DNA of 7,824 nucleotides, taken from the NCBI GenBank assembly GCA_020432595.1, contig JAGQGA010000240.1:1-7824 (forward strand), read 5' to 3'. The position numbers were made by a program, and so were the translations under genes. The number at the start of each line of letters is the position of its first letter. Position 1 is the first letter of the stretch. This document shows positions 1-7,824 of the stretch, piece by piece. Below the pieces are notes generated by a model. That model saw only the letters and a program-made list of their open reading frames with translations. It was not told where the DNA came from and made no database searches. The DNA comes from Anaerolineales bacterium. GTDB taxonomy: Bacteria; Chloroflexota; Anaerolineae; Promineifilales; Promineifilaceae.

Positions 1-968
1 GCCTGCGCCATGCCTTCATCCAGCCCCACGCGAGGAGTGTAGCCAAGCAGGGTTTGGGCTTTGGTATCGGGGTAAAGGGTGTGGAGCGTCATAAAGCGGA
101 CGCGCTCGCGGGTGAGGGGAACGCGCAAATTGAAAGTGTCGCGCAGCCAGGCAACGATTTTGGCTCCCCACAGCGGCATACTGCGCGGGGTTTTGCCACA
201 CATGCGGCCGTAGCAGCCAAAAAAGGTTTTGAAACTGACGTGGCTGTCTATGAGCTGGAAGGCTTGGTTGGGGGCTTGGGGGGAAACGGCCGTTAATAAC
301 AGCCCATCTACCATATTGTCAATAAACGACGGGTACGCATGACCCGACCCATCACCCACAATGCAAGGCGTGCCGTTTTGCACCAGCCGCAACATTTGCA
401 CCGACCAGCTTACCGACCCAGGGCCATAAATCATGCCGGGTCGGACAACCGCCACCTCAATGCCTAGCTCAGGACCAAGTTCCAGCACCCGGTTATCGGC
501 CAACGCCTTGGTACGACCATAAACGTCGGCTTGGGTCGTGTCCAGTGGCGTATCTTCGGTAACAGTCGTCGTTTTGGGCAGCCCATAGGCCGCCATCGAG
601 CTAACATAAACAAAGCGGCACACGCCTGCTTTGGCGGCCAGCCGCAGCAGTTGCTCCGTTGCCTCCACGTTGACCTTGTAGGCCATCGCTTCGGCTCCTT
701 TGTTATAAACCAGCCAGGCGGCGACGTGGAAAACTACATCTTGCTCAGCCACCAGCTCCGCCAGCCGCGCCGTGTCGAGCATATCGGCGGCCTGCATATT
801 GACCCCAGCCGCCTGCAAATAGGCTGCTTTTTCCAGGCTGCGCCCGGTGCCGGTGACAATCGCCTCTTCTTCGGTTGCCAGCCGCAGTGCCAGCCGCCCA
901 CCGACAAAGCCGGTTGCCCCGGTGACTAAAACTTTTTGCTTGCGTAATGCGTAATTGATATAGGACAT
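1..968 (-). CDS. NAD(P)-dependent epimerase/dehydratase (extended SDR), C-terminus cut by window edge
   Basis: Translating the minus strand from the ATG at 966-968 gives 322 codons without a stop, running off the left edge. The N-terminus carries the Rossmann nucleotide-binding motif TGATGFVG (residues 16-23). It is followed by HVAAW (81-85), a VYVSS strand, and the catalytic YxxxK as YGRTK (Y150, K154), then RPGMIYGPG. This order is that of extended short-chain dehydrogenases acting on nucleotide sugars, sterols or similar substrates; the substrate cannot be told from sequence. It is soluble, with no signal peptide. No Shine-Dalgarno precedes the ATG, but a good promoter places transcription start on it (see 976-1004). 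An in-frame ATG at 1002-1004 is the alternative start, but it falls inside the -35 box. Residues 5-9 are encoded by a heptamer repeat. Family assignment is firm, exact function is not. Confidence 0.93.
   Translation of the reverse strand, partial: MSYINYALRKQKVLVTGATGFVGGRLALRLATEEEAIVTGTGRSLEKAAYLQAAGVNMQAADMLDTARLAELVAEQDVVFHVAAWLVYNKGAEAMAYKVNVEATEQLLRLAAKAGVCRFVYVSSMAAYGLPKTTTVTEDTPLDTTQADVYGRTKALADNRVLELGPELGIEVAVVRPGMIYGPGSVSWSVQMLRLVQNGTPCIVGDGSGHAYPSFIDNMVDGLLLTAVSPQAPNQAFQLIDSHVSFKTFFGCYGRMCGKTPRSMPLWGAKIVAWLRDTFNLRVPLTRERVRFMTLHTLYPDTKAQTLLGYTPRVGLDEGMAQ
942..955. repeat. Two-unit heptamer repeat GCGTAAT inside SDR 5' coding end
   Basis: GCGTAAT occurs twice in tandem (942-948, 949-955). 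On the coding strand it reads ATTACGC twice and encodes part of the short N-terminal extension (NYALR) just before the first Rossmann strand. It has the same 7-bp period as the larger intergenic repeats further right. Confidence 0.7.
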
Positions 969-975
969 ATCGGAA

Positions 976-1004
976 ATTGTAGCGATAAACCGGGTAGGTG
1001 TCAT
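976..1004 (-). promoter_or_regulatory. Sigma70-type promoter for the SDR gene, giving a leaderless mRNA
   Basis: On the minus strand, ATGACA (1004-999, 5/6 to the -35 consensus) is followed after exactly 17 bp by TACAAT (981-976, 5/6 to the -10 consensus). Seven bases further is A968, the first base of the SDR ATG. The expected transcription start is therefore on or beside the start codon, which fits the absence of a ribosome-binding site. Inferred from box matches only. Confidence 0.6.
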
Positions 1005-1006
1005 GT

Positions 1007-1035
1007 TTGACAGCTAAACGGCCGTTGTCTACACT
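1007..1035 (+). promoter_or_regulatory. Sigma70-type promoter for holin-like/methyltransferase unit
   Basis: A perfect TTGACA (1007-1012) is followed by a 17-bp spacer and TACACT (1030-1035, 4/6 to TATAAT). Start of transcription would be near 1042, leaving a leader of about 50 nt before the ATG at 1091. The -35 box is 2 bp from the -35 box of the opposite promoter, so the two are back to back. The palindrome AACGGCCGTT (1017-1026) fills the middle of the spacer and could be a protein-binding site. Confidence 0.6.
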
Positions 1036-1045
1036 ACCCTAATCT

Positions 1046-1072
1046 GTAAGGTGGATTAGCAATCCGTCCTAC
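1046..1072 (+). other. Leader hairpin upstream of holin-like gene
   Basis: Arms 1046-1057 and 1061-1072 pair over 12 positions with core GGATT/AATCC, two G-U wobbles and one A-C mismatch, around a 3-nt loop. It lies in the presumed 5' leader, 8 nt before the AAGGAG ribosome-binding site. It has no T-run, so it is unlikely to be a terminator. It may stabilise the leader or be a repeat remnant. Confidence 0.4.
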
Positions 1073-1090
1073 TATTCACGAAGGAGACCC

Positions 1091-1447
1091 ATGAGTCGTT
1101 TTATTATCCGTATTTTGATCAACGCTGCCGCTCTGTGGGTGGCCGCGCAACTGCTTTCCGGCATCACGCTTGCCCAGGATTTCGTCACCGTCCTCATCGT
1201 CGCCCTTGTTTTTGGTTTGATCAACGCGCTGCTCAAGCCCATTCTCACTATTTTGTCCCTACCGTTTATCATTGTCACGCTGGGGCTGTTTACGCTAGTC
1301 ATCAATGGCCTGCTGCTGCTATTGGTTGACGCGCTCACCGATGGGCTAACAATAGCCGGGTTCTGGTGGGCTGTTTTAGGCAGCATCGTCATTTCCATCG
1401 TCAGCATGGTGCTTAACTCGCTGTTTGATGAGGAGAATAACCGCTAA
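1091..1447 (+). CDS. Phage holin 4 / YvlD-like small membrane protein
   Basis: The product is a 118-residue, almost wholly hydrophobic protein with about four membrane segments (roughly residues 4-24, 28-48, 50-76 and 84-110) and a short charged tail (DEENNR). Length, the INALLKPIL stretch in the second segment, and the GLFTLVINGLLL segment fit the family named mycobacterial 4-TMS phage holin (PF04020), which includes YvlD of Bacillus. Despite the name, these are usually chromosomal envelope proteins of unknown role rather than lysis proteins, and no phage gene is nearby. The start is supported by a strong AAGGAG at 1081-1086, 4 nt before the ATG. It heads a two-gene unit: its TAA (1445-1447) touches the next ATG. 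A promoter is seen at 1007-1035. Confidence 0.88.
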   Translation: MSRFIIRILINAAALWVAAQLLSGITLAQDFVTVLIVALVFGLINALLKPILTILSLPFIIVTLGLFTLVINGLLLLLVDALTDGLTIAGFWWAVLGSIVISIVSMVLNSLFDEENNR

Positions 1448-2146
1448 ATGTGGCTGTGGGTGGGAGGCATTGCTGCCATCATTGCGCTGGGGTTCCTGCT
1501 CTATTGGCTGATAGTCATCACCGAGGGGCTGTTTTTGGGGCGGCACTTTGTTGTTTGGCTTTACGACCGCACGGCGCACCAATATGATGGCATCAAGGAG
1601 TTTGATGCGCTGGCGGAGCAATTTTTTGTGACGCAGCCGCTGCTGCTTCAGCTCACGGGGGTTCCCGCGCCGCGTGTGCTGGATGTGGCGACAGGGACGG
1701 GGCGGCTGCCTTATTTTTTGCTCAACGAGCCGCTGTTTAACGGCAAAGTGGTGGGTGTGGAGCCATCGGCCAAGATGTTGGCGTTGGCGCAGGAAAAATT
1801 ACGGCCGTTTTCCTATCGCGTGAGTTTGGTGCAGCAAACGGCCGTTCCCCTTCCCTTTGCCGATCACAGTTTTGATGCTGTCACCTGTCTCGAAGCCCTC
1901 GAATTTTTCCCCTCCGACAGGGAAGCACTGCAAGAAATGGTGCGCGTGCTGCGCCCCGGCGGCACGCTGCTCGTCACGCGGCGACGCGGCTGGGAAGCCA
2001 AACTCTTTTTAGGTCGCTATTGGTCGCAAGAAGCGTTTGAAACCTATTTGCGCTCTCTGGGGCTAGAGGGCGTAAACACCCAGATTTGGCAGGTAGATTA
2101 TGACCAGGTTTTTGCCCAGAAGATGATTGTAGGGAGTAGGGAGTAG
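1448..2146 (+). CDS. Membrane-anchored class I SAM-dependent methyltransferase
   Basis: The product has 232 residues. Residues 3-25 form a hydrophobic membrane anchor. Residues 76-181 are a Methyltransf_11-type core: motif I VLDVATGTGR (77-86), acidic E105 at the end of the second strand (VVGVEPS) for ribose binding, PFADHSFDAVTCLEALEF (136-153), and VLRPGG (167-172) before strand 5. It should transfer a methyl group from S-adenosylmethionine at the cytoplasmic face; the ubiE-like core suggests a lipid, quinone or small-molecule acceptor, but none can be named. The ATG follows the holin-like stop codon without a gap, and AGGAG (1431-1435) lies in the end of that gene, so translation is probably coupled. 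The last residues (VGSRE) and the TAG stop are encoded by a GTAGGGA heptamer repeat, so the C-terminus was likely reset by that element. Confidence 0.88.
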   Translation: MWLWVGGIAAIIALGFLLYWLIVITEGLFLGRHFVVWLYDRTAHQYDGIKEFDALAEQFFVTQPLLLQLTGVPAPRVLDVATGTGRLPYFLLNEPLFNGKVVGVEPSAKMLALAQEKLRPFSYRVSLVQQTAVPLPFADHSFDAVTCLEALEFFPSDREALQEMVRVLRPGGTLLVTRRRGWEAKLFLGRYWSQEAFETYLRSLGLEGVNTQIWQVDYDQVFAQKMIVGSRE

Positions 2147-2194
2147 GGCGTACCTTTACACCCCACGCCCTACTCCCTACCCCCCACTCCCTAC
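2129..2194. repeat. Heptamer inverted repeat, unit GTAGGGA, between convergent genes
   Basis: The left arm is GTAGGGA, GTAGGGA, GTAGGGC (2129-2149). The right arm is the reverse complement in heptads (GCCCTAC 2167-2173, TCCCTAC 2174-2180, a degenerate CCCCCAC 2181-2187, TCCCTAC 2188-2194). The loop is about 17 nt. The TAG stop of the methyltransferase (2144-2146) and, on the other strand, the TAG stop of the SH3 protein (2193-2191) both lie in the repeat. A transcript from either side would fold into a strong GC-rich hairpin, which could end or protect both mRNAs, although there is no T-run. Confidence 0.85.
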
Positions 2195-2991
2195 GGCTCT
2201 GCTGTTGGAGCAGGGGGAATGTCAATGGCGGGGGGAACGGCCGTTTCATCCCCCACAAACGTCACCGCTTCAGCTACCACCCAGGCCAGCTCCCCATTAA
2301 TACAGCACACCTGCCACCAATCCTGCGCCGAGACGCTGCCAACGGCCGTAAATTGTTCCCCTGCTGCGGCCACCAGCAAAATGGGGTAATCAGTGCTGGG
2401 GCCACTGCGGATGTTAAGCCGTTCGACATTGACCACCACGCTGGGCAGTTCAGGCGTTGGGGTGGCGGGGATGGGAATGGCAGAAACGGCCGTTTGTGTG
2501 GGCAAGGGTAGTGGGGTTGCCGTAACAGTTGGGGTTGGCGTAAATGTAGCTGAAGCAGTAGCCGTTGCCGTTAGGGTGGGAACAGCGGACGGCAGCGTGG
2601 TTGCGGTGGCGGAAGGCGTAGACGTGTTTGCCACTGCCGCTACCGCTGCGACAGTAGGTAAGGGAGTGGTTGCTGGCCGCATGGCGAATTGCCAAATAGC
2701 AAAACTGAGCAGCCCCAACAGCAAAACAGCCGTTGGCAGCAGCCACCATCGCCTAGGCACCGGTTTTGCATCTGGCGGTGCGGGTGGTGCTGGCTGGGCT
2801 TGGCAATAGATGGGGCAGGTGGGGTGGTTGGGGCTGAGGCAGAAGGTTTGTTGGTGGTCGAGGGAAACGGCCGTTTCCGGCTTGGTGCGAAAACAGCGCC
2901 CCATTTGCGAAGGAAACAGCAGCCCCGTTGTAGGGTCATTGGCAACGGCAAAATGGGGGCAATTTTGGTAAACGGTGTCGCGGTCGGTCAT
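2191..2991 (-). CDS. Single-pass membrane protein: Cys-rich N-terminus, Pro/Thr linker, extracytoplasmic SH3 domain
   Basis: The product has 266 residues in four parts. Residues 1-63 are a compact segment with cysteines at 11, 33, 51, 59 and 63 and the signature CP...D.TT...P....C......L..Q..FCL...P.CP.Y. It could bind a metal in the cytoplasm; I recall similar N-terminal segments on Chloroflexota membrane proteins but cannot verify it here. Residues 82-103 are a membrane segment preceded by RR (80-81), which favours an N-in orientation. Residues 106-183 are a Pro/Thr/Ala-rich spacer, typical of cell-wall-spanning linkers. Residues 186-247 are a bacterial SH3 domain (LNIRSGPSTDYP, WWQV, AWV), which usually binds peptidoglycan or other envelope ligands. 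It is convergent with the methyltransferase, and its TAG stop is inside the GTAGGGA repeat. There is no clear ribosome-binding site before the ATG at 2989-2991. Confidence 0.85.
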   Translation of the reverse strand: MTDRDTVYQNCPHFAVANDPTTGLLFPSQMGRCFRTKPETAVSLDHQQTFCLSPNHPTCPIYCQAQPAPPAPPDAKPVPRRWWLLPTAVLLLGLLSFAIWQFAMRPATTPLPTVAAVAAVANTSTPSATATTLPSAVPTLTATATASATFTPTPTVTATPLPLPTQTAVSAIPIPATPTPELPSVVVNVERLNIRSGPSTDYPILLVAAAGEQFTAVGSVSAQDWWQVCCINGELAWVVAEAVTFVGDETAVPPAIDIPPAPTAEP

Positions 2992-3018
2992 CTGTTTTGG
3001 GCAAAGAAATGATGTTTA

Positions 3019-3069
3019 GAGATTAGAGATTGGAGATTATGAGCCTCATAATCTCCAATCTCTAATCTC
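3019..3069. repeat. Perfect 25-bp inverted repeat of GATTAGA/GATTGGA heptads between divergent genes
   Basis: Arms 3019-3043 and 3045-3069 are exact reverse complements separated by a single C at 3044. Each arm is built of 7-bp units (GATTAGA, GATTGGA, GATTATG). It lies in the 165-bp gap between the SH3 protein start (2991, minus) and the sigma factor start (3157, plus). It could form a cruciform in DNA or a long hairpin in a transcript from either side. I see no convincing promoter for either gene in the remaining gap. Confidence 0.9.
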
Positions 3070-3156
3070 AGAATTTTGCTTGGATCATGGGCGATTTGGC
3101 CGAATCTGTCAATGAAACTGTCACAAAATCGGTAATGGCGGTGTTTAGAGGGGTGA

Positions 3157-3753
3157 ATGGCGACAAAGGACAAAGCTTTGACCACACTATCGGATAATGT
3201 TTTGCTTAAACGGCTGGAGCAGGGCGACGAAGCTTCATTTGAAACGCTTTTTCACCGTCACTATGACCGGGTGTATGGGTTGCTGTTTCGGCTGCTGGGC
3301 AACCGGGATGAGGCGGAGGAGCTAGTGCAGGAGGTTTTCCTAAAGCTGTATCGCCATGCCTTTGCCCAACAGATGTTTGCCAAACGGCCGTTTGGCGGCA
3401 CGCCGCCGCACAATCTCAGCGGCTGGCTGTATCGGGTGGCGACCAACGAAGGGTATAACGCCATTCGCGGACGGCAGCGGCAGTGGCAGCGCAATCGGCT
3501 GCTGGTGCCAGACCCGGCGGGTGCGCCCGGCGCGGAGGTGGCGGTGGAGAGAAAGGAACGGGAAATGGCCGTTCGTGCTGCCCTGTCAACTCTACCGCCT
3601 CACCAGGCCCAACTGCTGCTGCTGCGCCAAATGGATTTGAGCTATGCCGAGCTGGCCGAAGCGTGTGACATTGCCCCTGGCTCGGTAGGGACGCTGCTGC
3701 GTCGGGCGGTGGCGGCTTTTCGTGAAGCGTATCAAAGGGAGATTGGGGATTAG
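3157..3753 (+). CDS. ECF-family RNA polymerase sigma factor
   Basis: The product has 198 residues. Sigma2 covers about residues 28-112: FETLFHRHYDRVY, then DEAEELVQEVFLKLY (core binding, region 2.2, 51-65), then LSGWLYRVATNEGYNAIR (-10 recognition, 87-104). Sigma4 covers about 138-192: LSTLPPHQAQLLLLRQMDLSY (144-163), then the helix-turn-helix ELAEACDIAPGSVGTLLRRA (165-184), which reads the -35 element. Sigma3 is absent, as expected for ECF (extracytoplasmic function) factors. Between regions 2.2 and 2.3 there is a loop (about 70-86) whose AKRPFG is encoded by an 18-bp palindrome. AGAGGGG just upstream is a modest ribosome-binding site. The gene downstream encodes a membrane protein in the usual anti-sigma position. 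The stop TAG lies in a GATTAGA heptad. Family is clear; the regulon is unknown. Confidence 0.94.
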   Translation: MATKDKALTTLSDNVLLKRLEQGDEASFETLFHRHYDRVYGLLFRLLGNRDEAEELVQEVFLKLYRHAFAQQMFAKRPFGGTPPHNLSGWLYRVATNEGYNAIRGRQRQWQRNRLLVPDPAGAPGAEVAVERKEREMAVRAALSTLPPHQAQLLLLRQMDLSYAELAEACDIAPGSVGTLLRRAVAAFREAYQREIGD

Positions 3754-3797
3754 AGATTAGAGATTGATGAAGGTTTGCAATCTCCAATCTCCAATCT
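3741..3797. repeat. Imperfect heptamer inverted repeat (GATTAGA / CAATCTC) at the sigma factor stop
   Basis: The left arm has GATTGGG, GATTAGA, GATTAGA, GATTGAT (3741-3768). The right arm has CAATCTC twice and CAATCTT (3778-3798). Pairing is imperfect, with A-C mismatches where the left arm has GATTAGA instead of GATTGGA. The TAG stop of the sigma gene (3751-3753) is inside the left arm. The hairpin separates sigma from its presumed anti-sigma partner and may tune their relative expression. Confidence 0.8.
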
Positions 3798-3824
3798 TTA
3801 ACCCCATATTTTTGGAGAAAACAG

Positions 3825-4814
3825 ATGATCAACCCAAATGAGAATGAGACAGACATTTTGGATGTGATGGAAACGTTGGAAGTGCTGGAACCAACGGCCG
3901 TTAATGCCCCCCAACCAGTCCGCCAGGCATATGCCCAATTGCGCCAGCAGATGGCGCCCATGCCCCAGCGCAGTTGGTGGCAGCGGCTCCTGCAAACGCC
4001 AGAACGCCGTTTTGCTACGGTACTGGCTTCGCTGGTATTTATGTTTGCCCTGGCACTCAGCTTCCCCAGCTTCCGCGCCGCCGCCAGCGACTTCCTGGGG
4101 CTGTTCCGCGTGCAAAAATTTGCTGCCATTTCCGTTTCGCCGGAGCAGATAGCCATTCTGGAGCAGTTGGCTGAATCGGGGGTAACGCCGGGCGAATTGG
4201 AAGTTATCGACGAACCGACTGAGCCGATGCGCTTTGCCTCACTGGGTGAAGCAGCAAGGCAAACGGGGCTGACACCGCGCACGCTGCCATCGCTGGGTGA
4301 TCCACAGGAGGTGCAGGTGATGGGTGGGGTAAACGGCCGTTTAATCGTCAACCTCGAAAGTGCCCGCACCATCCTCAGTGCCACCGGCAGCGACCCCGCC
4401 CTGCTGCCCGACAGCCTTGACGGCCAGCCAATCAACATCCAAACGTTTCCCGCCGTGGTTCAGCGCTGGGGCGATTTGATGCTGCTGCAAAGCGAAAGCC
4501 CCAACATCAGCTATCCCGATGGCTTGGATGCCACCCTCATCGGTAAAGCCATTTTGCGAGCTTTGGGGCTAAACGAAGCCGAGGCCGCACGGCTGGCGCA
4601 GCAAATTGACTGGACAGGTACGCTGCTGCTGCCCGTGCCGCAAAATGTTGCCAACTTTAGCGAAGTGACAATAGAGGGGACGAGCGGTATTGCGCTCACC
4701 AGTCTGGACAGCCAGGACAACATGGTGATGTGGCAAAAAGACGGCGTGATCTACGTACTGGCCGGCCGTCAGGATGTGGCGGGTTTGCTGGACGTAGCGG
4801 GAGAACTGCGGTAA
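3825..4814 (+). CDS. Single-pass membrane protein in anti-sigma position
   Basis: The product has 329 residues. Residues 1-60 are a cytoplasmic part, acidic at first, then with a charged helix (VRQAYAQLRQQM, 32-43). Residues 63-80 form one membrane segment after ERR (60-62), giving N-in orientation. Residues 84-329 are an extracytoplasmic domain opening with FRAAASDFLGLFR, and containing a predicted mix of helices and strands. There is no zinc-binding HxxxCxxC motif, so it is not a ZAS-type anti-sigma factor. Its place directly after an ECF sigma gene, with a good GGAG (3814-3817) 7 nt before the ATG, supports a role in holding that sigma factor at the membrane and sensing an outside signal. 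That role is inference from position and topology; a lipoprotein-like sensor of unrelated function is the alternative. Stop at 4812-4814 lies 28 bp before the next repeat. Confidence 0.8.
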   Translation: MINPNENETDILDVMETLEVLEPTAVNAPQPVRQAYAQLRQQMAPMPQRSWWQRLLQTPERRFATVLASLVFMFALALSFPSFRAAASDFLGLFRVQKFAAISVSPEQIAILEQLAESGVTPGELEVIDEPTEPMRFASLGEAARQTGLTPRTLPSLGDPQEVQVMGGVNGRLIVNLESARTILSATGSDPALLPDSLDGQPINIQTFPAVVQRWGDLMLLQSESPNISYPDGLDATLIGKAILRALGLNEAEAARLAQQIDWTGTLLLPVPQNVANFSEVTIEGTSGIALTSLDSQDNMVMWQKDGVIYVLAGRQDVAGLLDVAGELR

Positions 4815-4842
4815 AAAGGGGGTTACTGCCATTGGCATTTTT

Positions 4843-4908
4843 GGAGATTAAGAGATTGAGAGATTAGGAGATTATGGGGGATTACTCTCTCAATCTCCCA
4901 ATCTCTTC
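4843..4908. repeat. Imperfect inverted repeat of 8-bp units (GAGATTAG-like / CAATCTC-like)
   Basis: The left arm (4843-4875) repeats GAGATTA/AGAGATTG with a period near 8. The right arm (4881-4908) has CTCTCAAT, CTCCCAAT, CTCTTC. Pairing needs small bulges. It has the same GATTAGA-type content as the elements at 3019 and 3741 but with one extra base per unit. It occupies most of the 111-bp gap between the anti-sigma-like gene and the ABC ATPase gene. Confidence 0.78.
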
Positions 4909-4925
4909 TTTAGCCTTTGACCTAT

Positions 4926-5852
4926 ATGCCTGAAACGACAACCCCTGCCATTTACACCTCCCATTTGCACAAAACCTTTGGCAATAAAGTGGCTGTGGCC
5001 GACCTGACGCTGACGGTGGAGCGCGGGGAGGTGTTTGGCTTTTTGGGGCCAAACGGCGCGGGCAAAACAACATCGGTGAAAATGCTGCTGGGGTTGACGC
5101 GGCCAACGGCTGGGGAAGCACGGCTGTTAGGCAAGCCGGTGGGCGACCGCGAAATGCGGCGTAAGGTTGGCTTTTTGCCGGAGCATTTTCGTTTTCATGA
5201 GTGGCTGCGGGCGGGGGAATTTTTGGATTTACACGGCCGTTTATATGGCATGAGCCGCAGCGAACGACAAGAGGCCATTCCCCGCCTGCTGAAGCTGGTG
5301 GGGCTGGCCGACAGGGTGGAGACACGGCTGGGGGCGTTTTCTAAGGGGATGCTACAGCGAGTTGGGCTGGCACAGGCGTTACTCAATAAGCCTGACCTGG
5401 TTTTTTTGGATGAGCCAACGTCGGGGCTTGACCCGCTGGGGCGGCGGCTGGTGCGGGATATTATCAACGGGCTGCGGGGGGAAGGAACGGCCGTTTTTCT
5501 CAACTCCCACCTCCTCAGCGAAGTGGAGCAGACGTGTGACCGGGTGGCCTTTGTTCGCCAGGGGGTAGTGCTTAGCACAGCCAACGTAGCTGACTTTGAT
5601 GCCGACAAGCTACAGGTAGTAGTGCGGGTGGGGCAGCCATCGCCGCAACTGTTGGCCGATTTGGGGCAGTTTGATCGGGAGGTGGCGTGGGAAAACGGCC
5701 GTTATCACCTCACTCTACCCCACGAAAGCGACCTCCCCCGGCTGGCAAGCTGGCTTGTTGGTCACAACCACACCCTCTATGAATTTACCCCGACTCGCCT
5801 ATCGCTGGAAGATCGTTTTTTGCAAATCATTGGCGAAGATACGGGTCAGTAA
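4926..5852 (+). CDS. ABC transporter ATP-binding protein (ABC-2 exporter type)
   Basis: From the ATG at 4926 the product has 308 residues. A TTG at 4917 would add three; neither start has a ribosome-binding site, so the start is uncertain. Walker A is GPNGAGKTT (41-49), the ABC signature is FSKGMLQR (138-145), Walker B is LVFLDEP (158-164) followed by the D-loop SGLDP, and the switch histidine is H195 (LNSHLLSE). The usual Q-loop glutamine appears as H87 in [12 protein letters not shown], a variant position worth noting. Residues about 225-308 form a C-terminal extension as in DrrA/NosF-like exporters. It would drive export together with the permease encoded 86 bp downstream; the cargo is unknown. 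The TAA stop (5850-5852) lies in the first CAGTAAT heptad of the following repeat. Confidence 0.95.
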
Positions 5853-5928
5853 TCAGTAACCAGTTATCAGTTATCAGTAACCAGTTTAACTGATTACTGA
5901 TTACCGATTACCGATTACCAAATTACTG
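5847..5928. repeat. Heptamer inverted repeat, units CAGTAAT/CAGTTAT and GATTACC
   Basis: The left arm has CAGTAAT, CAGTAAC, CAGTTAT, CAGTTAT, CAGTAAC, CAGTTTA (5847-5888). The right arm, from about 5889, has CTGATTA twice, CCGATTA twice, then CCAAATTA and CTGG. Arms are complementary with scattered mismatches and no real loop. It fills the gap between the ABC ATPase and permease genes and would form a long hairpin in their shared transcript. Confidence 0.85.
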
Positions 5929-5938
5929 GCAGCAAACC

Positions 5939-6766
5939 ATGACAACTCTAATTATTGCCCAATTGACGATTCAAGAAACCCAGCGCAAGCGCATTTTGTG
6001 GCTGGCACTGATTTTGGGTGGGCTGTTTTTGCTGCTGTTTGGCATTGGCTTCCACTACATCTACAGCGATATGGAGCAGTTTGCTGGCAACCGTGACCAG
6101 ATTTTCTTAGGCTTTTTGCTGATGGCTGGGCTGTATGTGGTCAATTTTTTGATTGTGATGCTGTCGGTGTTGACTTCGGTAACGGCCGTTTCTGGCGAAA
6201 TCGAAACCCACACTATCGAAACCTTGCTGACCAAACCTGTGCGCCGCTGGGAAGTCGTGCTGGGCAAATGGCTGGGGTTTGTCGTGCTGCTCATTGGCTA
6301 CATCATTTTGCTGGCCGGGGGCGTGATGCTCATTGTCTATCTTCGCGCCGGCTTTGCCGTGGAAAACTTGTGGGCGGGGCTGGGGCTAATGGTGCTGGAA
6401 GGGTTGGCGGTGCTGTCGCTGACCATTGCCGGGGGCACGCGCCTGTCAACGCTGGCAAACGGGGTGCTAACGTTTATGCTTTATGGCGTGGCCTTTATTG
6501 GCGGCTGGGTGGAACAAATTGGGGCACTGCTGCGGAATGAAACGGCCGTTGATATTGGCATTGTTTCCAGCCTGATTATGCCCAGCGAAATGCTGTGGAA
6601 AAAAGCGTCAGCCTTGTTCTTACCCTCGCTTGCCAACAACCCCTTCAACGTTGGACCATTTGCCGTCGCCTCCGAACCAAGCACGTTGATGTTGCTTTAC
6701 GGGGGCTTCTATACCGTTGCCTTGCTTCTGCTGGCACTATGGAGTTTTTCCGTCCGTGATTTATAG
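5939..6766 (+). CDS. ABC-2 type transporter permease (NosY-like)
   Basis: The product has 275 residues with six predicted membrane segments (about 20-40, 57-82, 111-135, 147-165, 173-192 and 248-270). Between segments 2 and 3 is the family hallmark SGEIETHTIETLLTKPVRRWEVVLGKW (85-111, key residues E87, E89, T92, L96, P100, R102 and K110), the cytoplasmic coupling region seen in ABC-2 permeases of the NosY/GldF kind. It is the membrane partner of the ATPase encoded just upstream, and both subunits would be needed to make the exporter. There is no strong ribosome-binding site before the ATG at 5939; a stretch of heptad repeats ends about 10 bp upstream. Translation may depend on the upstream gene. 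The exported substrate is not predictable. Confidence 0.92.
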   Translation: MTTLIIAQLTIQETQRKRILWLALILGGLFLLLFGIGFHYIYSDMEQFAGNRDQIFLGFLLMAGLYVVNFLIVMLSVLTSVTAVSGEIETHTIETLLTKPVRRWEVVLGKWLGFVVLLIGYIILLAGGVMLIVYLRAGFAVENLWAGLGLMVLEGLAVLSLTIAGGTRLSTLANGVLTFMLYGVAFIGGWVEQIGALLRNETAVDIGIVSSLIMPSEMLWKKASALFLPSLANNPFNVGPFAVASEPSTLMLLYGGFYTVALLLLALWSFSVRDL

Positions 6767-6944
6767 TTGGCATCTGGTTGCCTTTGGTTAGTTGTCCTAT
6801 TTCAAGACATTATTGTAGTCATTCAATTAGTTCCTCTTATTGAAAGCAAAGCAGCCTCAACAGGATAGACTTCTCTGCCGCTGAGATAATCTTTTGGTTC
6901 CATCCGAGTAAATCGCTCGTTAACCCCATAGCGGTTTAGTATAA

Positions 6945-6974
6945 TTTAGATACTGCCCATGCCGGTCATATAAT
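6945..6974 (+). promoter_or_regulatory. Candidate promoter for the DUF2000 gene
   Basis: A perfect TATAAT (6969-6974) has TTTAGA (6945-6950, 4/6 to TTGACA) 18 bp upstream. The expected start would be near 6981, about 40 nt before the ATG at 7021. A second TATAAT at 6940-6945 lacks a good -35 partner. The -35 match is weak, so this is only a candidate. Confidence 0.4.
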
Positions 6975-6980
6975 ACAAGC

Positions 6981-7003
6981 GGGTCAACTATCCAAATTGA
7001 CCC
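6981..7003. other. GGGTCAA / TTGACCC inverted repeat, possible operator
   Basis: Two 7-bp arms, GGGTCAA (6981-6987) and TTGACCC (6997-7003), are exact reverse complements with a 9-bp spacer, so their centres are 16 bp apart. They sit directly downstream of the candidate -10 box, where a repressor would block transcription. A 5' leader hairpin is the alternative. Confidence 0.4.
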
Positions 7004-7020
7004 ACTTTTCTACGCAAAAC

Positions 7021-7431
7021 ATGAACTTTGATACCAAAATTGCTATTGTCGTAGCTGAAGATTTAGCCATTTGGCAAAAACTTAACGTAACCGCATTCCT
7101 TACCTCTGGCATCGTTGGAACTACTGAAGGCATCATCGGCGAACCATATAAAGATGGTTCACAGCGGGCTTATCTGCCACTTTGCATTCAGCCAATAATT
7201 GTTTTGAAAACCAGCCGTGGCCGCTTGCAAACCATCCTCAACCGCGCCAACAGCCAGAAGGTGGCCGCTGCCATCTACATCGAAGACATGTTCGCCACCG
7301 GCCACGATGCCGCCAACCGCGCCACCGTCACCAACTACCCATCGGGTACGTTGCCACTTGTAGGGCTGGCCGTGCGCGGCGAGAAAAAGCTGATTGACAA
7401 GATTGTGAAAGGAGCCAAGCTCCATGATTAA
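7021..7431 (+). CDS. DUF2000 family protein
   Basis: From the ATG at 7021 the product has 136 residues. The opening FDTKIAIVVAEDLAIWQKLNVTAFL (residues 3-27, key K6, E13, W18, N22 and F26) followed by GIVG and IIGEPYKDGSG-like text is typical of DUF2000 (PF09391), whose length it matches. I recall that members share the peptidyl-tRNA hydrolase 2 fold; their biochemical role is not established. A later segment, YIEDMFATGHDAANR (about 91-105), fits the conserved C-terminal half. A TTG at 6997 would add eight residues, but that addition is unlike the family and overlaps the inverted repeat, so the ATG is preferred. There is no clear ribosome-binding site. The next gene starts 50 bp downstream on the same strand and may be cotranscribed. 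Confidence 0.85.
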   Translation: MNFDTKIAIVVAEDLAIWQKLNVTAFLTSGIVGTTEGIIGEPYKDGSQRAYLPLCIQPIIVLKTSRGRLQTILNRANSQKVAAAIYIEDMFATGHDAANRATVTNYPSGTLPLVGLAVRGEKKLIDKIVKGAKLHD

Positions 7432-7445
7432 AACACCCGTGTAGT

Positions 7446-7463
7446 CGAGGATTCCAATCCTCG
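7446..7463 (+). other. Hairpin between DUF2000 and acylase genes
   Basis: CGAGGATT (7446-7453) and AATCCTCG (7456-7463) are exact reverse complements separated by CC. The hairpin lies 17 bp before the acylase ATG. It has no T-run, so termination is unlikely. It shares the GGATT..AATCC core of the hairpin at 1046-1072. It resembles a tRNA T-arm, but no other tRNA parts surround it. Confidence 0.5.
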
Positions 7464-7480
7464 CTCCAAGGCTGGCTGCT

Positions 7481-7824
7481 ATGAATTGGCGGAAACTCCT
7501 CTTGATATTTGTTCTGTTCCTCTTAATCCTCATTGGCGGCGTGCTGCTGTACGCCTTTTGGCCGACCACGCCTAACCTGGCACATTTGGCTGCCCCGGCT
7601 GGAAGCCACGACGTGCGCATTCTGCGTGACGAATGGGGGGTGCCGCATGTTTTTGGCCGCACCGATGCCGATGCCGCTTTTGGGTTGGCCTATGCCCACG
7701 CCGAGGATGACTTTCTCACTATCCAGCAAATTTTGGCCGCCAGCCGTGGTCAGCTTGGGCGGTATTATGGCGTGGATGCGGCGCCCAACGATTACATGGT
7801 GCAGCTATTGCGGCTTTGGGAGGT
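7481..7824 (+). CDS. Penicillin acylase family Ntn-hydrolase, N-terminal part (cut by window edge)
   Basis: The ATG at 7481 opens a frame of 114 codons that runs off the right edge. Residues 5-27 are a strongly hydrophobic signal peptide or membrane anchor after a positive N-terminus (NWRK). Then come VRILRDEWGVPHVFG (45-59), AAFGLAYAHAEDDF (65-78) and LAASRGQLGRYYG (85-97), the conserved start of the alpha chain in the penicillin amidase family (PF01804; penicillin acylases, acyl-homoserine-lactone acylases). Members are exported and self-cleave before a catalytic serine that becomes the beta-chain N-terminus; that site is beyond this window. Substrate, whether lactone signal, lipopeptide or other amide, cannot be assigned. 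No ribosome-binding site is obvious; a hairpin lies just upstream. Confidence 0.9.
   Translation, partial: MNWRKLLLIFVLFLLILIGGVLLYAFWPTTPNLAHLAAPAGSHDVRILRDEWGVPHVFGRTDADAAFGLAYAHAEDDFLTIQQILAASRGQLGRYYGVDAAPNDYMVQLLRLWE

Follow-up and report, generated by a model that had tools for sequence, protein, structure and literature searches.

A genome-wide palindromic word in one order of Anaerolineae, held in place in several dialects and putatively bound by a chromosomal protein

The window analysed here, a stretch of 7,824 nucleotides from an Anaerolineales assembly (GenBank GCA_020432595.1, contig JAGQGA010000240.1, positions 1 to 7,824), has a GC content of 55.3% and encodes ordinary proteins: an epimerase, a PF04020 membrane protein, a UbiE-like methyltransferase, an SH3 protein, a sigma-70 factor, a protein of unknown function, an ABC ATPase, an ABC-2 permease, a DUF2000 protein and a penicillin amidase. 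Scattered through it is the palindromic decamer AACGGCCGTT, a candidate highly iterated palindrome (HIP) and the subject of this report. The 13 exact copies named in the original prediction were all recovered, far above chance; five further copies with one mismatch were counted rather than three, and the GC content had been put somewhat too high, at about 57-58%. Together these 18 copies compare with a mean of 0.29 in shuffled sequence (at most one mismatch), and the inner octamer ACGGCCGT is found 16 times where 0.14 are expected, 15 times within genes and once between them. The flanks of the copies are unrelated to one another. The copies do lie in genes of unrelated function, as had been claimed; their presence "on both strands" says only that the surrounding genes point both ways, because the palindrome is identical on each strand, and no strand is accordingly assigned to any site below.

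The left half of the window holds decamers at 285-294 (octamer 286-293), inside the epimerase gene on the minus strand, and at 1017-1026, the intergenic copy. Within the UbiE-like methyltransferase gene, an octamer at 1801-1808 (left outer base T) is followed by a decamer at 1837-1846, and the SH3-domain gene, on the minus strand, contains decamers at 2236-2245, 2485-2494 and 2866-2875, the last in the full 16-bp form GGAAACGGCCGTTTCC, together with an octamer at 2342-2349 whose right outer base is A. The other eight sites, for which orthologous DNA was compared, are located further on. A separate short repeat, GATTAGAGATT, occurs in four copies at two spots of the window (3021-3067 and 3748-3765), which are intergenic or at the end of a gene.

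A scan of contigs for pairs of decamers 185-215 bases apart returned at least 120 stretches; among the 80 listed, 75 came from Anaerolineae/Chloroflexi (16 genomes) and five were single matches in other groups. A genome-wide count near expectation, with the enrichment limited to the window, was refuted in the 16 related Chloroflexota genomes, which hold 564-5,060 decamers each compared with 1-42 copies of the reversed word; the five off-group genomes hold 3-186. Across 396 genomes from the class, counts fall into two peaks (79-5,060 in 23 genomes, 0-29 in 373), and all 23 decamer-carrying genomes belong to one order of Anaerolineae, of which 56 genomes were examined. No comparable word was found in 13 genomes of the class outside this order (10-60 kb sampled in each). 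In the 75 loci found by the scan (522 kb, the five off-group loci excluded), 505 decamers stand against 1.6 or 4.4 expected under second- and third-order Markov models, an enrichment biased upward because the loci were located through the word, a bias from which the whole-genome counts are free; under models of orders 4 to 6, which already include much of the motif in their words, the expectations are 25, 142 and 357. As for the off-group matches, several listed copies among the 186 decamers in the 3.8 Mb of an uncultured Saprospiraceae genome (G018, L022) are grouped 44-118 bases apart, and this resembles a short repeat more than a HIP.

What actually recurs is the octamer ACGGCCGT, whose weaker flank preferences vary between lineages, and not the decamer alone. 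Whole-genome counts of the octamer range from 2,887 to 15,176 in the 28 genomes of what we term the main clade (1.0-2.1 per kb, but 0.4 in G410), so that ACGGCCGT matches the HIP class in being a short GC-rich palindrome found genome-wide far above expectation, on the order of 1000 per Mb. In a 1.14-Mb pool from 27 of these 28 genomes (G374 is absent), which includes the word-found loci, 1902 octamers compare with 26.3 expected under a third-order model with the sites masked, i.e., 72-fold. Main-clade genomes with mid-level decamer counts (350-880 copies) were considered as decaying carriers, an idea that was dropped: they hold as many octamers as the other main-clade genomes, with the exception of G410 (2,887), and it is the outer base that differs. 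Around 1,381 copies from 17 genomes, the preference is symmetric, with A, A, G and G outward at 70, 42, 44 and 47%; the resulting consensus is GGRA-ACGGCCGT-TYCC, and the preferences thus extend to 16 bp. The 339 copies from five further main-clade genomes retain the preference only at the two G positions, at 45 and 48%.

Octamer density is 1.71 per kb in coding and 1.25 per kb in non-coding DNA, a spread that again fits the HIP class. Spacing, measured for 743 sites in 409 kb from four genomes of the main-clade group G001, G362, G379, G407 and G408, is near-Poisson (coefficient of variation 1.01, as against 1.06 +/- 0.04 for random placement), and the idea of even spacing under selection for coverage was dropped on that account; short gaps, of 100 bp or less, are mildly depleted (0.142 vs 0.176 +/- 0.012). 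One-off variants of the octamer are over-represented in the main clade at the first base (527 vs 205 expected) and show no overall excess at the three inner positions (100 vs 131, 107 vs 171 and 86 vs 70). An early impression that variants are depleted, as a sign of repair, shrank once the background was masked, and since third-base depletion is also seen in the loss clade described below, only the lack of a variant excess is used here as evidence.

A palindrome scan made without a prior word yielded one octamer per lineage, with the core CGGCCG in all dialects but one. Besides the main-clade dialect ACGGCCGT, a T dialect, TCGGCCGA, occupies G409 and G115 (194 copies vs 5.6 expected in 138 kb); it counts 9,414 and 7,668 copies in these whole genomes and 14-298 in the main clade, while ACGGCCGT falls to 198 copies in G409 and 85 in G115. 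In sampled contigs of G200 the dialect is GCGGCCGC (68 vs 1.7 in 44 kb); two further contigs, of 4.3 and 6 kb, add 9 and 10 copies, and the 4.2-kb rpoB locus has none. The changed core belongs to G412, where TGCCGGCA is found 25 times vs 1.3 in the sample and 3,665 times genome-wide; TGCCGGCA happens to be our reversed control word, and CGGCCG itself is depleted in this genome (4 vs 26.8). G351 shows a milder excess of TGCCGGCA (886 copies). Five genomes (G171, G297, G222, G368 and G421) have CGGCCG with a weak flank preference or none, and a milder excess of CCGGCCGG is seen in G241 (13 vs 1.5), G288 (16 vs 3.4), G411 (17 vs 5.5) and G222 (21 vs 5.1). Second-base variants are slightly over-represented in the T and G dialects (22 vs 13.0 and 10 vs 6.4). 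No sampled main-clade genome has CGATCG above expectation, which sets the word apart from HIP1 proper, GCGATCGC. A CGATCG dialect suspected in G150, where CCGATCGG stood at 9 vs 0.8 in 10 kb, is not claimed, as the count came to 4 vs 1.5 in a further 15 kb; in G139, ACGCGCGT was counted 7 times vs 1.7 in 10 kb.

On an RpoB tree covering 50 of the order's 56 genomes (a quick method, with Shimodaira-Hasegawa-like approximate likelihood ratio test, SH-aLRT, support only; six genomes without usable rpoB, including main-clade G002, G006, G015 and G374, were left off), the high and mid decamer carriers form one clade, G297 excepted. Nested inside it are G351 and a seven-genome group with higher pooled GC (62%), both of which have largely lost the word: the seven-genome loss clade retains 220-646 copies of ACGGCCGT per genome, a residual twofold excess (27 vs 13.6 in sampled DNA). 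Outside the carrier clade, G115 and G409 group with weak-flank G171, and G200, G412 and a group of G297, G222, G368 and G421 also branch there, the deep branching being partly unresolved. Other words in these genomes also depart from expectation. The loss clade (G088 and relatives) has a different repeat, with 8-mers such as AATTAGGA and AATTACGA over-represented 12-21-fold. GGGCCC is strongly avoided in G088 and several main-clade genomes (e.g., 0 vs 97 expected in 119 kb of G088), as is GCCGGC in several genomes, an avoidance like that under restriction. In L286-L287 of G320, 8-mers belonging to GGGCATTAAGAC and GAAATAGACT each number 44-70 within 40 kb, which may reflect a CRISPR or similar array.

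The octamers stay where they are through conservation of the DNA itself, which is strong enough to fix synonymous codons. The window locus has matching DNA in 55 of the order's 56 genomes, with about 64-74% identity over the longer matches, and orthologous DNA from 20 genomes was used to compare it. Across four genes from up to 19 genomes, the window included, ordered comparisons found 1194/2273 octamers retained vs 1923/19664 controls. Where the protein is unchanged, the figures become 1194/1230 (97%) and 1923/6887 (28%) for same-composition controls, a tally that includes 15 more control comparisons than the first; 1043 of the 1079 octamer losses are accompanied by a protein change. Genome pairs are not independent in such counts; by unique site, mean retention in the four genes is 0.99 for 10 sites and 0.12 for 322 controls. 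In rpoB from 24 main-clade genomes, 1306/1426 octamers (92%) are retained under an unchanged protein vs 4676/25693 controls (18%), the T pair of genomes gives 2/3 vs 2/67, and the loss clade 0/5 vs 1216/3878. Around rpoB in five related genomes, 84-100% of octamers are retained vs 21-60% of same-composition 8-mers, and within the gene individual ACGGCCGT positions are common to up to 26 genomes.

Among the eight remaining window sites, sharing varies from gene to gene. In the ABC ATPase gene, the octamer at 5233-5240 (left outer base C) is found in 16 of 18 main-clade orthologues, that of the decamer at 5486-5495 (octamer from 5487) in 13 of 18, and that of the decamer at 5694-5703 (from 5695) in 16 of 18 and also in loss-clade G088, while G200 has its own GCGGCCGC there. 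The ABC-2 permease gene has decamers at 6181-6190 and 6541-6550, whose octamers (from 6182 and 6542) occur in 8 and 10 of 12 main-clade orthologues. In the gene of unknown function, the octamers of the decamers at 3893-3902 and 4332-4341 (from 3894 and 4333) are present in two and four of 16 main-clade orthologues, respectively, and the decamer at 3383-3392 of the sigma-70 gene lies in a stretch absent from most orthologues, none of which has its octamer (3384).

Such maintenance leaves an imprint on the proteome. The octamer is read in all three frames (930 times as T-A-V, 558 as x-G-R and 257 as R-P in the 1.14-Mb pool), and among tripeptides seen at least 60 times in the main-clade pool, TAV is the most over-represented (983, 3.75-fold), followed by NGR (3.15). 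The leading tripeptide changes with the dialect: it is SAE in the T dialect (TCGGCCGA, 3.0-fold) and AAA in G200 (2.4). TAV stands at 1.02-fold in 12 word-free genomes.

The word is also present on phage contigs. Searching IMG/VR twice with paired decamers returned 20 contigs, some possibly near-duplicates and with proviruses and free phages indistinguishable, in which ACGGCCGT occurs at 1.1-3.5 per kb of the fetched part in 14 and at 0.15-0.5 in six, densities biased upward because the contigs were found by the word. One to four proteins from each of nine of the 14 dense contigs were scanned against PHROGs. Structural genes were recognised on four: terminase and portal on the contig of L303, terminase on that of L383, portal and head protease on that of L296 and head protease on that of L297; the word also sits inside such genes. 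The other matches were to a helicase loader, an endolysin, a methyltransferase or a peptidase domain, and one contig had none. Viral scans for the other dialects added little: those with TTCGGCCGAA pairs gave two contigs at 0.27 octamers per kb, and those with CGCGGCCGCG pairs at least 120 stretches. In L303:1-530, a phage gene for a D12-class methyltransferase (93-998) has degenerate GTCACAAATGACGATG-type repeats in its middle, which also lie just upstream.

How might such a word be maintained? In our estimate the scales hang level on the reading that AACGGCCGTT is a local dialect of the HIP family belonging to one order of Anaerolineae, its copies being putative binding sites of an abundant palindrome-reading protein. 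We envisage an abundant, two-fold symmetric DNA-binding protein of the nucleoid or chromosome-maintenance type, or possibly an enzyme outside the families tested; binding would make each site individually costly to lose, or would shield it from mutation, a shift in the specificity of the reader would convert the whole genome to another dialect, and without its reader the word would decay. In favour of this reading we count the genome-wide abundance and confinement to one order, the single octamer per lineage in the scan made without a prior word, the symmetric flank preferences, retention under an unchanged protein, near-Poisson spacing, the lack of an overall excess of one-off core variants in the main clade and tripeptides that follow the dialect. 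The fuller proposal is advanced more tentatively: that one bacterial order uses a genome-wide code word which is not a methylation mark, with about 3,000-15,000 symmetric sites per genome putatively bound by an undescribed abundant chromosomal protein, conserved site by site, bending the proteome, carried by phages and rewritten when specificity shifts. Several observations weigh against a binding protein. No reader fitting the carriers emerged among three methyltransferase families, RecBCD/AddAB and Dnd. Sharing of rpoB positions is non-specific, one TCGGCCGA site being present in 21 genomes and one CCGGCCGG site in 20, word-free ones included; it is therefore weak proof by itself, and weight is placed on the unchanged-protein controls. 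Window sites are poorly shared in two of the four syntenic genes, and rpoB retention of ACGGCCGT is just 8/18 vs 136/705 in the weak-flank group. Retention and proteome imprint would likewise result from biased repair without function, and dialect switches over thousands of sites resemble an exchange of specificity of the restriction-modification type, which speaks for an enzyme.

The main rival to a binding protein is indeed a methyltransferase, outside the tested families or missed by them. In the classical HIP model (Elhai 2015), which we consider possible though doubtful here, a solitary DNA methyltransferase recognises CGGCCG, methylated sites are kept, e.g., for mismatch repair, and dialects reflect exchanged enzymes; every HIP genome would then be expected to have a methyltransferase for part of the word. 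The model has a close cyanobacterial parallel in alternate HIPs with matching methyltransferases (PMC4390886), and type II specificities typically have such a palindromic core of 6-8 bp. Searches for PF00145 and PF01555 covered 28 carriers (24 main-clade genomes and G171, G222, G297 and G368), plus 14 and 13 further genomes, respectively; G200, among 13 taken as word-free, in fact carries the GCGGCCGC dialect. Its matches to both families speak for the model, as do PF01555 matches better than 1e-10 in 21/28 carriers. Against it, seven carriers have no such match to PF01555, the N4/N6 family, at this threshold, and among 49 clustered sequences, part of the matches, no cluster spans all carriers and the largest covers just 10 main-clade genomes and G297; C5 methyltransferases (PF00145) are without a match in 13/28, and five carriers (G001, G006, G011, G379 and G222) lack both. 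D12 methyltransferases (PF02086), searched like PF12705 and DndC across all 56 genomes of the order, occur in 45 of them, with and without the word, and the 20 examined all have a motif that we take to be of the GATC type. Flank preferences reaching 16 bp likewise sit poorly with such an enzyme. The link to methylation raised in the original prediction thus draws no support from the three families, and its check for a solitary methyltransferase turned up none that fits; because metagenome assemblies are incomplete (rpoB itself is undetected in 5/56) and other methyltransferase families lay outside the search, the missing families weaken the model rather than dispose of it.

Sequence-directed repair or conversion, or local protection from mutation, could instead make and keep the word as a by-product of no benefit to the cell, and near-Poisson spacing, presence on phage contigs, the lack of a decay cloud around the main-clade core and the protein imprint would all fit. 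We judge it unlikely, as no candidate enzyme was found, repair of the VSR type acts at one position only and would not build a 72-fold enrichment, and the near-constant company of octamer loss and protein change means that protein change overrides any such process. A signal for recombination or uptake, whether a Chi-like site read by RecBCD/AddAB or an uptake sequence kept by transformation, appears improbable: its density, its lineage dialects and its spread across all genes resemble uptake-sequence dialects, and a protective Chi-like word might need to be carried by phages, but known Chi and uptake words are non-palindromic, per-site retention is near complete and dense phage contigs equal the host density. 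PF12705 on frames above 900 amino acids, as in RecB, AddA and AddB, was moreover detected in only three of 28 main-clade genomes (G014, G315 and G374), though also in T-dialect G409 and in G171, G368, G420 and G421; DndC, as a sign of Dnd phosphorothioation, passed the cut-off in just 5/56 genomes of the order. Assembly contamination, codon usage, a mobile repeat or chance can be virtually dismissed, with no point found in their favour: independent assemblies agree, the carriers are 23 of 396 genomes and confined to one order, the word occurs in three reading frames and in non-coding DNA, window flanks are unrelated, copies sit at orthologous positions and same-composition controls behave otherwise.

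The anticipated system, akin to HIP1 but built on another word in another lineage, is borne out. The suggestion that it may be undescribed also held, inasmuch as the literature searched, which leaves out most subscription journals, yielded no account of a word of this kind from Chloroflexota. The three Chloroflexi genomes of Hiraoka 2019 (PMC6329791) have GANTC, TTAA and GCWGC in common, motifs with no relation to the word, and a passage of PMC8093824 is likewise unrelated to it. The order thus offers an independent HIP case in another phylum with natural replicates, namely several sister dialects, one loss clade and one changed-core lineage; as the reader should differ between dialect and loss lineages, it can be sought through gene content and substitutions on the tree. 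Near-completely frozen synonymous codons and the dialect-matched tripeptide excess together make this a strong example of protein sequence being shaped by a signal in the DNA, and codon-based analyses of carrier genomes would be biased by them. The word could also tag metagenome contigs and phages for host assignment.

Known systems resemble this one in different respects. Dnd phosphorothioation, at GGCC-centred sites, shares the palindromic context, but DndC is too rare in the order to match. Chi sites are likewise short, GC-rich words over-represented in coding DNA; they differ in being asymmetric and in needing RecBCD/AddAB, whose long subunits were seen in so few main-clade genomes. DNA uptake sequences of Neisseriaceae and Pasteurellaceae also occur at about 1 per kb, in lineage dialects around a fixed core; those are non-palindromic, whereas here the word is a palindrome and phage contigs reach host density. 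The closest likeness is to HIP1 of cyanobacteria, described in 1995, found at about 1000-2000 per Mb and still termed a mystery as to its role in Elhai 2015 (PMC4390886). According to that paper, cyanobacterial HIPs have a CG-NN-CG core with flanking extensions, lineage variants that replace the word and losses elsewhere, and HIP1 deviations concentrate on the outermost bases. The Chloroflexota word shares all of this: a GC-rich palindrome of 6-10 bp, the same type of core, flank extensions, replacement or loss by lineage and deviations at the outermost bases. It differs in its phylum, in its core CGGCCG, in having several dialects within one order and in the lack of a fitting methyltransferase among those found. 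The main clade has no overall excess of the one-off core variants reported there as common in many cyanobacteria. Its flank preferences run to 16 bp, phage contigs carry it, and near-complete retention at synonymous positions has been measured for it.

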